A stretch of 64,000 nucleotides of DNA from assembly GCF_014201615.1 (NCBI RefSeq), contig NZ_JACHEU010000001.1:1693631-1757630 (forward strand), written 5' to 3'. Below, piece by piece: positions 50,438 to 51,973 of the stretch. The DNA is from Aquamicrobium lusatiense (lineage in GTDB: Bacteria; Pseudomonadota; Alphaproteobacteria; Rhizobiales; Rhizobiaceae). The number at the start of each line of letters is the position of its first letter. Position 1 is the stretch's first letter. The notes under the pieces were generated by a model. It was not told the DNA's origin. It ran no database searches and saw only the letters and a program-made list of their open reading frames with translations. A program made the position numbers and the translations under genes.

Positions 50438-50854
50438 ATGGTCGCACAGAAGGGCAAGGACCTTCTTCTCAAGATCGATTCGACGGGGCTTGGCGCTTTC
50501 GTCACCGTCGCCGGGCTGCGCACCAAGCGCATCGCCTTCAACAGCGAGACCGTGGACGTGACCGACGCGGATTCGACCGGCCGCTGGCGCGAGCTTCTCG
50601 CCGGCAGCGGTGTGCAGCGCGCAGCGGTGAGCGGGTCGGGCATCTTCAAGGATGCTCAGTCCGACGCGCTGATGCGGCAGAATTTCTTCGCCGGGAACAT
50701 CGTTGCGTGGCAGCTTGCCGTCCCGGATTTCGGTGTGATTTCCGGCCCATTCCAGATCACCTCGCTCGAATATACCGGCGCGCATGACGGCGAGGTCACT
50801 TTCGAGATGGCGCTGGAATCGGCCGGGCCGGTCAGCTTCACGGTGACGCCATGA
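50438..50854 (+). CDS. GTA major tail tube protein (g9, TP901-1 type)
   Basis: A 138-residue tail tube protein. Characteristic segments are K-G-K-D-L-L-L-K-I-D, V-A-G-L-R-T-K-R-I-A-F-N-S-E-T-V-D-V-T and F-F-A-G-N-I-V-A-W-Q. It forms the polymerised tail tube. It follows g8 after 32 bases and overlaps g10 by four bases. Confidence 0.92.
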   Translation: MVAQKGKDLLLKIDSTGLGAFVTVAGLRTKRIAFNSETVDVTDADSTGRWRELLAGSGVQRAAVSGSGIFKDAQSDALMRQNFFAGNIVAWQLAVPDFGVISGPFQITSLEYTGAHDGEVTFEMALESAGPVSFTVTP

Positions 50855-51192
50855 GCGCGAACCGCAGGCGAGGCGAGGTTGCCGCCGAACTGGATGGGAA
50901 GCAATACAGGCTGTGCCTGACGCTGGGAGCGCTGGCCGAGCTGGAATCGGCATTCGCCGCCGAGGACATTGGCAGGCTGGTCGAGCGCTTCAGCAGCGGC
51001 AAGCTTTCGGCGCTCGACATGATCCGCATCATCGGTGCCGGCCTGCGCGGGGCTGGCGAGCCGGTCAGCGACGAGGATGTCGGCAAAATGGCGGCGACCG
51101 GCGGGGCCGCCGGCTATGCGGCGATCGTGAGCGACCTTCTGACCACCACCTTCGGAGGGGCCGCGGAGGACACCACGCCGTCGCGCCCCTGA
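50851..51192 (+). CDS. GTA g10 family protein (tail assembly chaperone, first part)
   Basis: A 113-residue protein of the GTA TfmC-like (gp10) family: L-C-L-T-L-G-A-L-A-E-L-E, S-A-L-D-M-I-R-I-I-G-A-G-L-R-G and L-L-T-T-T-F-G-G. It overlaps g9 by four bases and ends at TGA 51190-51192. Directly before the stop are four C residues (51186-51189), which allow the last Pro codon to slip by one base into the chaperone frame. It may thus be the short form of a G/GT-type pair. Confidence 0.85.
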   Translation: MSANRRRGEVAAELDGKQYRLCLTLGALAELESAFAAEDIGRLVERFSSGKLSALDMIRIIGAGLRGAGEPVSDEDVGKMAATGGAAGYAAIVSDLLTTTFGGAAEDTTPSRP

Positions 51193-51230
51193 ATGCCGCA
51201 GCGGGCGTCACCGCCTTTCCATGGGATGAG

Positions 51231-51407
51231 GTGATGACCATGGGCCTCGGCCTGCTGCGGCTTTCTCCGAAAGAGTTCTGGGCGATGACGCCCATTGAAT
51301 TCGAGCGCGCATCGCGACCGTTTTCGCAGCGTCGGCAGACTGCCCCCGCGCGTGCCGATCTGACGAAACTGATGCGTGCGTTTCCCGATCAACATGCAGG
51401 AGGCTGA
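51231..51407 (+). CDS. GTA tail assembly chaperone-like frame (g10.1), no upstream start
   Basis: The protein has the rcc01693-like pattern F-P-W-D-E-V-M-x-M-G-L-G-L-L-R-L-S-P-K-E-F-W-A-M-T-P. The F-P-W part is encoded upstream of the first start codon in this frame (GTG 51231). The frame is open from before the g10 stop, in the -1 phase, so a -1 frameshift at CCCC-TGA would join it to g10 and restore the motif. Other readings are a non-standard start, or a one-base loss between ATG 51193 and the motif. GTG 51231 is given as the shortest product. Confidence 0.65.
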   Translation: MMTMGLGLLRLSPKEFWAMTPIEFERASRPFSQRRQTAPARADLTKLMRAFPDQHAGG

Positions 51408-51409
51408 CT

Positions 51410-51973
51410 ATGGCCGATGACGTGACGGTGGCCATCAGGGCCGATGTCGCACCGTTCCAGACCGCGCTCGCCAGTCTGGAAAAACTGTCCGACAGCTTTG
51501 GCACCAATCTGGCCGGCGCGATGAAGCAGGCGGTGGTTGGCGGACGCGAGCTTGACGACGTGCTGCGCAAGCTGGCGCTGAACCTTGCGGGCATGGCGCT
51601 TTCGCAAGGGCTGAAACCGCTGCAATCGCTGGCCGGGTCCCTGTTTTCGGGCTTGCTCGGCGGACTGGGCGGCGCGCTTCCCTTCGCGAAGGGGGGCGTG
51701 GTGCCGTTCGCATCCGGCGGCGTGGTGTCGTCGCCGACCTATTTCCCGATGGGTGGACAGGTTGGCCTGATGGGCGAAGCGGGCAGCGAGGCGATCCTGC
51801 CGCTGCGACGCGGTGCTGATGGCAGTCTTGGCGTTGCGGCCGGCGGGACCAGCGCGCCGGTCAATGTCGTTTTCAACGTGACCGCGCAGGATGCGGCCTC
51901 CTTCCGCAAATCCGAAGCGCAGATCACCGGCATGCTGGCGCGTGCGGTGTCGCGCGGAACCCGAACCTTCTGA
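51410..51973 (+). CDS. GTA tape measure protein (g11), short
   Basis: A 187-residue protein that begins V-T-V-A-I-R-A-D-V-A-P-F-Q and has a Gly-rich middle (F-S-G-L-L-G-G-L-G-G-A) and G-G-V-V-P-F-A-S-G-G-V-V. GTA tape measures are short because the tail is short. The F-P-M-G-G-Q-V-G-L-M-G-E-A-G-S-E-A-I-L motif is typical. It starts two bases after the chaperone stop. Confidence 0.9.
   Translation: MADDVTVAIRADVAPFQTALASLEKLSDSFGTNLAGAMKQAVVGGRELDDVLRKLALNLAGMALSQGLKPLQSLAGSLFSGLLGGLGGALPFAKGGVVPFASGGVVSSPTYFPMGGQVGLMGEAGSEAILPLRRGADGSLGVAAGGTSAPVNVVFNVTAQDAASFRKSEAQITGMLARAVSRGTRTF

Follow-up and report, generated by a model that had tools for sequence, protein, structure and literature searches.

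We identified a very probable programmed −1 ribosomal frameshift in a gene transfer agent (GTA) of the RcGTA type, in which slippage at the 3′ end of g10 would join this gene to g10.1 and yield a fusion protein of 185 aa. The pair lies in a stretch of 64,000 nucleotides from Aquamicrobium lusatiense (contig NZ_JACHEU010000001.1), referred to below as the window. The features of the locus, in window coordinates, are as follows.

50438..50854, + strand, g9 major tail protein, upstream neighbour (TIGR02126, E 1.8e-36; PF06199)
50851..51192, + strand, g10 tail chaperone 1 (Phage_TAC_11), zero frame, stop TGA at 51190-51192
51154-51159, + strand, further SD-like sequence GGAGGG
51165..51169, + strand, SD-like sequence GGAGG, candidate stimulator, 13 nt before the position of the shift heptamer
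51183..51189, + strand, putative shift site G_CGC_CCC with the C_CCC tetramer at 51186-51189; mostly A_AAC_CCT in relatives
51189..51407, + strand, g10.1 frame (−1) as it would be read after the slip, from L-N-A-A-A-G-V-T-A-F-P-W to its stop; second part of the 185-aa fusion
51195..51206, + strand, 5′ arm of the stem, GCCGCAGCGGGC, 5 nt after the shift site
51216..51392, + strand, Phage_TAC_6 / TIGR02216 (tail chaperone 2) domain (PF09550, E 3.7e-16)
51250..51261, + strand, 3′ arm of the stem, GCCTGCTGCGGC, within the G-L-L-R-L codons of g10.1; 12 bp with one G-U
51410..51973, + strand, g11 tape measure protein, downstream neighbour (NF058675 RcGTA_tape, E 2.1e-47)

Profile searches found in the window a head-tail cluster whose gene set and order, from the portal to the 'megatron' baseplate protein, are those of an RcGTA-type cluster: models for portal, protease, capsid, connector, head closure, major tail, baseplate hub and GTA_megatron were matched in that order, and the two terminase candidates of the window matched no NCBIfam model. 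g10 belongs to Phage_TAC_11 (PF11836, E 1.2e-30, 105.9 bits against a gathering cut-off of 27.8) and g10.1 to Phage_TAC_6 and TIGR02216, with 59.7 bits for PF09550 (cut-off 23.4) and 57.2 bits for TIGR02216 (cut-off 56.1), a model named after rcc01693. g11 scored 161.7 bits with RcGTA_tape, under the model cut-off of 220. The AF2 model of g10 (mean pLDDT 80.8) has weak fold matches to predicted viral proteins named 'tail assembly chaperone' and also 'tail tube protein', the best two of the former at TMq 0.62-0.65 and E 7e-3 to 8e-3. Foldseek against the PDB gave no match for g10 at E 0.001, and a profile search of solved structures gave a single match at E 0.13. A second, weaker PF09550 match (31.9 bits) lies on contig C2 of the same genome (L335, 45695-45808), adjoined by ORFs that resemble tail genes by eye, perhaps those of a prophage.

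The initial annotation placed g10 at 50851-51192 with the ending CGC-CCC-TGA, and the chaperone frame in the −1 phase, open well upstream of the g10 stop. The sequence bears out both points: g10 ends TCG-CGC-CCC-TGA with a CCCC run at 51186-51189, and the frame that carries F-P-W-D-E-V-M is in the −1 phase with respect to g10 and forms an open stop-to-stop stretch at 50847-51407. The further claim that this frame lacks a start ahead of the motif holds near the junction but not throughout, as GTG 50913, 277 nt ahead of the g10 stop and deep within g10, is the sole ATG, GTG or TTG before F-P-W; between it and GTG 51231 the translation contains no further start. A −1 slip at the last Pro codon of g10 would give g10 followed by L-N-A-A-A-G-V-T-A-F-P-W, and a +1 shift at the same CCC-TGA would end after 12 codons without the chaperone domain. 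The arrangement is of the G/GT type, with overlapping ORFs between the major tail and tape measure genes, the second in the −1 phase and without a near start. In the single sequence of the window neither the CCCC run nor the long open frame carries much weight by itself against chance; across −1 junctions the upstream openness of the −1 frame ranges from 1 to 526 nt. What lifts the site above chance is the comparison with relatives, through the register counts of AAACCC.

We collected loci from whole genomes, named genomes (best 80 of at least 574), phage records and IMG/VR contigs (best 80 of at least 579). Of 297 genomes sampled from the family, 213 contain a PF09550 match. A scorable g10/g10.1 pair was present in 323 of the 333 loci and absent from 10; removal of 47 junctions with an identical 90-nt context around the g10 stop left 276 distinct junctions, which are not counted as independent events because the remaining loci are still related. 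The second gene is in the −1 phase in 262 of these, in the +1 phase in 11 and in the same frame in 3. Fifty of the 276 junctions look like separate genes, namely 36 in the −1 phase with an ATG or GTG start and no slip site (own-start junctions) and 14 in the other phases.

The nearest relative of the window in the g10 tree is Aquamicrobium defluvii (support 98; g10 80% identical). The tree, restricted to genomes (210 rows, 105 columns) and poorly resolved with 90 open forks and long branches, requires 22 changes between the frameshift and own-start classes, and its starred branches force at least 6 changes for the own-start label. g10 was matched in just 11 of 146 genomes of the window's genus, one of them weakly, and the large-genome members listed have no convincing g10 match. 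A tblastn search of phages with g10 and g10.1 of the window returned two records only, GTA-like by eye and both with AAACCCT. These 'phage' records, L241 (MW091529.1) and L242 (MW462191.1), resemble GTA clusters and read AAACCCT_TGA; in their annotation the CDS that follows g10 begins beyond the g10 stop, and the frame entered at the slip site is left out.

The slip register is conserved among the relatives. Within the last 45 nt of g10, AAACCC occurs in the X_XXY_YYZ register in 129 of 262 −1 junctions and in the other two registers in 0 and 3, and it ends right at the g10 stop in 102 of the 129; across the whole g10 interior the three registers hold 2, 1 and 3 copies (6 total). CCT serves as the A-site codon in 109 of the 129 AAACCC junctions, although it makes up just 3 of the 47 Pro codons in the interior of these g10 genes. 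The initial annotation had proposed that tRNA-Pro slips back by one base on the CCCC that precedes TGA, by analogy with lambda G/GT, and had suggested examining related clusters for conservation of the C-run and of the phase. The relatives support this proposal, since the heptamer A_AAC_CCN is found in 129/262 junctions and, in a scan made without demanding a slip site or gap, 161 of the 181 junctions with the stem arm have CCC at a constant distance ahead of it, one base plus 5 nt.

The window itself has only the second half of the canonical X_XXY_YYZ site seen in its relatives. Its G_CGC_CCC does contain a Z_ZZN tetramer, C_CCC at 51186-51189, at which the A-site codon would re-pair cognately in the −1 frame. 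The best bacterial −1 motifs are reportedly those at which the A-site tRNA can re-pair cognately. A tRNA-Pro(GGG) able to pair with CCC in both frames is encoded in the window's genome, as found in a scan of 30 of the 44 tRNA loci. Frameshift efficiency in the window may be low, because re-pairing of the P-site CGC to GCG is poor. C_CCC and C_CCU are both shift-prone tetramers in E. coli, in an account that describes the Z_ZZN class (PMC4066793, in part).

Sites of lesser form occur widely. In 168 of 262 junctions (site+stem junctions) CCC is followed after 5 nt by a stem arm that can form 7 or 8 of 8 standard pairs with the L-L-R-L codons. These were chosen for CCC, the 5-nt gap and the open frame, so none of these three properties is evidence on that set. 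Fifty of the 168 lack the XXX triplet (GGACCCT 17, GCGCCCC 5, TTCCCCT 5, others), and the site stands directly before the g10 stop in 132. Other heptamers among the 262 −1 junctions are GGGCCC (6), the lambda-like GGGAAAG (9) and TTTCCC from the F-P-W codons (15).

Two of these classes were kept apart. In the T_TTC_CCT class (15 junctions; for example L116, L124, L130, L133, L137, L138, L140, L141 and L270) g10 extends beyond F-P-W, whose own codons supply the slippery register; no downstream structure was found (mean fold z −0.04). G_GGA_AAG lies in register near the g10 stop in other alphaproteobacterial clusters (L103, L106, L107, L132, L150, L205, L214, L237 and L330), and these nine junctions likewise show no structure (mean fold z −0.44).

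Besides the slip site, the window holds an SD-like motif and an RNA stem, both absent from the initial annotation. The downstream RNA structure of stimulated bacterial −1 frameshifts lies 5-9 nt after the site. The window, with its stem at 5 nt and GGAGG at 13 nt, has the layout of such a frameshift; its fold z is −2.33 over 51190-51290 and −4.04 over the stretch ending at 51269. In relatives an element, GCCGCAGC, lies 5 nt after the site and is conserved also at third codon positions. The third base of its first codon is C in 98 of 102 junctions and that of its second codon A in 82 of 102, to be compared with GCA at 88 of the 783 Ala codons of g10.1. Its exact complement, GCTGCGGC, has a constant position in g10.1, at the L-L-R-L codons; in 141 of 174 junctions the top-ranking partner falls there and forms 7 or more of the 8 Watson-Crick pairs. 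Arg 15 is CGG in 158 of 173 junctions versus 8 of 36 own-start genes.

The two arms covary across lineages. With one of the 174 rows dropped, standard pairs fill 93.4% of 8 x 173 cells, and the Watson-Crick share is 88.8% versus 85.0% after row shuffling (maximum of 500 shuffles 86.3%), a small rise. A changed element is met by a changed partner in GCCGCAAC/GTTGCGGC (L057, L218, L289), GCCGCAGG/CCTGCGGC (L046, L118, L216 and others), GCCGCATC/GATGCGGC (L025), GCCGCAGA/TCTGCGGC (L023, L032) and GCCGCAAG/CTTGCGGC (L160); the counter-cases L090, L256 and L274 carry GCCGCAAC with an unchanged GCTGCGGC. For the full 12-bp stem we used an alignment (A3) of 58 of the 62 loci of equal length. The four omitted are L117, L119 and L272, for which the stem test is negative, and L321, for which it is positive and which was omitted for no stated reason. 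Paired cells amount to 91.2%, 6 of the 12 pairs are changed on both sides, and the covariation of 0.185 exceeds both the shuffled value (0.112; 0 of 500 reached it) and the values of at most 0.074 obtained when the arms are slid. RNAalifold, unaided, recovered nine of the stem's pairs.

Folding tests agree when the full span is used. Across all 174 junctions whose site is AAACCC, GGGCCC or a C tetramer, unselected for the stem, the mean fold z is −4.00 and 89% lie below −1.5. In a control comparison of 110 loci drawn from stem-chosen junctions, flanking stretches gave −0.11 and −0.56, and own-start genes −0.46. A test of just the 45 nt after the site detected no structure (mean z +0.43, 99 AAACCC junctions); it was repeated with the full span because the partner arm sits further on. 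The bare arm scan, without site or gap demand, finds the arm in 181 of 262 junctions but is loose, as 9 of 36 own-start junctions also have an arm and a partner slid by 3 to 9 nt is still found in 32 to 139 of 262; the weight is therefore carried by the coupling of the arm to CCC. Rfam over 50600-51600 gave three matches, all under their gathering scores. A local hairpin was rejected as the general stimulator; in 13 of 174 junctions a near-perfect partner lies just before F-P-W instead. Junctions in which the element pairs best at that place include L018, L029, L034, L038, L044, L045, L067, L070 and L076.

SD-like sequences are enriched upstream of the site. Of the 168 site+stem junctions, 61 have an SD 5-mer whose end lies 5-16 nt ahead of the site, in comparison with 7 and 6 of 168 for two control intervals and 3 of 36 own-start junctions. 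The spacing to the site peaks at 9-10 nt, and the 13 nt of the window is found in few relatives. SD-core 4-mers are present between 31 and 15 nt ahead of the g10 stop in 75% of the 102 junctions with AAACCC at the stop and in 87% of 39 C-tetramer junctions, versus 14% of 36 own-start junctions; two control intervals farther upstream gave 30-38% and 15-17%. This enrichment and spacing suits a dnaX-like stimulator and not initiation at the stop.

SD-like motifs upstream of a stop are also what coupled initiation would predict, whereby g10.1 starts by termination-reinitiation at a TTG (CTG 51189 in the window) that overlaps the TGA. We consider this improbable. TTG is the first codon after CCC in 69 of 129 AAACCC junctions, but its presence at the stop is automatic because CCT followed by TGA spells TTG, and the remaining 60 have TTA, TCC, CTG, CTA, TCG or other codons. 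Between the site and F-P-W, which is intact in 163 of 168 site+stem junctions, 59 of the 168 contain no ATG, GTG or TTG at all and 76 contain TTG only. In at least these 59 the translated frame must therefore be entered upstream or at an unusual codon. The SD spacing peak refers to the slip site, and the GGAGG of the window ends 19 nt before CTG, which is far for initiation. A start would, moreover, need neither the strict AAACCC register nor a stem 5 nt on. On the other side stands A. zhengzhouense (L202), which reads G_CGC_ACC_TGA, without CCC and without a start, and retains the CTG overlapping TGA; its stem arm pairs 8/8. This exception could reflect a loss of recent date, an error, or the ability of some other feature to stand in for the C run. 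An ATG or GTG between site and motif occurs also in 30 of the 129 AAACCC junctions, and in L135, a genome of the class, g10.1 has a separate ATG, which overlaps the TGA. Two proteins in a large database (P0110 and P0117) carry PF11836 and PF09550 in one continuous chain; they fit a functional fusion, or alternatively could be assembly errors.

L202, as a case of a site losing its CCC, and the incomplete heptamer of the window could also point to decay of the site in the window's lineage, with g10.1 no longer made, or to a base error in the window. This is quite unlikely, as C_CCC, the SD-like motif, TGA, the 5-nt gap and the 12-bp stem are all in place there and most neighbouring head-tail genes match their families. 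G_CGC_CCC_TGA is found identically in L281 and L315, and A. defluvii has G_CGC_CCT_TGA. Among 120 g10 matches listed the protein ends Asn-Pro in 96 and Arg-Pro in 16, and of the 12 closest among the matches listed 11 end Arg-Pro and 1 His-Pro. A one-base error is made unlikely by these 11 of 12 together with A. defluvii, whose junction is in the same −1 phase. The initial annotation had named, as evidence against its proposal, an in-frame start in close relatives that would expose an error in this sequence; no such case was found.

Internal reinitiation at GTG 51231, ATG 51234 or ATG 51240 would produce a shortened g10.1, and an SD-like GAGGTGAT at 51228-51235 lies close before ATG 51240. It is very unlikely: as the initial annotation had pointed out for GTG 51231, such a start drops F-P-W-D-E-V, in spite of the near-constant F-P-W of the relatives, and the codon at position 7 is ATG in just 114 of 168 site+stem junctions. 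An ATG that immediately follows the g10 stop (TGAATG) begins a frame of 13 codons at 51193-51234, whose TGA overlaps GTG 51231 and ATG 51234 of g10.1; this may be chance. Transcriptional slippage on the C run of the window is barely credible, since four bases are short next to the runs of nine A or T in the described case (PMC5009743, in part) and neither the SD-like motif nor the stem would be needed.

Under programmed −1 frameshifting, the majority of ribosomes would terminate at TGA 51190 and release g10 of 113 aa. A fraction would pause at the TGA with CCC in the P site, held by pairing of the anti-SD of 16S rRNA with GGAGG behind the ribosome and by the 12-bp stem 5 nt ahead. Peptidyl-tRNA-Pro would then slip from CCC 51187-51189 to CCC 51186-51188 and CTG 51189 would be read next, resulting in the 185-aa g10-g10.1 fusion. 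The second chaperone domain of lambda-type tails recruits the major tail protein, and by analogy the TAC_6 domain of the fusion would do the same. The putative role of the slip would be to fix the proportion in which the short and the long tail chaperone sit on the tape measure protein, by analogy with lambda. The lambda counterpart of the g10 domain binds the tape measure protein (PMC5009743, in part).

A broader reading, which we hold to be about as apt to be right as wrong, is that the Hyphomicrobiales GTAs share one inherited recoding cassette of SD-like motif, slip site, stop, 5 nt and a long-range stem, the stem being encoded by the conserved L-L-R-L codons of the same domain to which slippage gives access. 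In this cassette the stem and SD-like motif would bear enough of the load for the slip site to erode to a lone C_CCY, as in the window, and switches to a separate start would have taken place several times. If so, the host keeps a viral control of protein ratio under selection in a domesticated particle, and the chaperone ratio would be a handle on particle output. The frameshift would be a further, widespread programmed case on bacterial chromosomes, located in elements by which host genes pass from cell to cell, and its conserved signal would be evidence that the clusters are still selected for tail building. The graded sites AAACCC, GGACCC, TTCCCC and GCGCCC with a constant stem would offer a natural test of each heptamer half in bacteria. 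If g10.1 is the tail of a fusion and not a separate gene, starts annotated inside it are likely wrong, and knock-outs and complementations must retain both frames.

Frameshifting of the −1 type in tail chaperones is classic, phage lambda G/GT being the known example, and is said to have been described for these genes by Xu in 2004. Like the window, lambda has two overlapping chaperone ORFs between major tail and tape measure genes, with the second in the −1 phase and without a near start. The window differs in that its cluster is a chromosomal GTA, its stem is built from codons of the downstream domain, and its fusion and ratio are proposed from sequence comparison. Lambda's own slip site is G_GGA_AAG, which we found in 9 of 262 surveyed junctions, whereas the site is A_AAC_CCN in the window's relatives and only C_CCC in the window. 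The SD distance of dnaX suits the 9-10 nt spacing seen in site+stem junctions. E. coli dnaX likewise combines an upstream SD-like stimulator, a slippery site and a downstream stem (PMC5009743, in part), but in another gene and with another shift site; here the zero-frame stop mostly comes right after the site, and the long product is the shifted one. The CCC_UGA sites of Listeria phage tsh and E. coli pheL have the same codon-stop pair as the window but shift +1 (PMC5009743, in part), whereas the chaperone frame of the window is −1.

The genes of the window correspond to RcGTA g10 and g10.1 (alias g10.5) in pfam11836 and in their place in the head-tail cluster (PMC11409702, in part). Genes of this type are called tail chaperone 1 and 2 there, and the word 'frameshift' is absent from the main text. 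PMC7296036 has none of the terms looked for. Phage RcZahn is described as giving no clear sign of the usual tail-chaperone frameshift, unlike most R. capsulatus phages in the same work (PMC8601537, in part). Among the open-access full-text matches listed there is no report of a frameshift in gene transfer agents, and an earlier report may exist elsewhere. The −1 frameshift of tail chaperones is thus already known, and what appears to be new is its probable occurrence in a GTA, with a well-marked signal and, in the window's genome, an eroded slip site.
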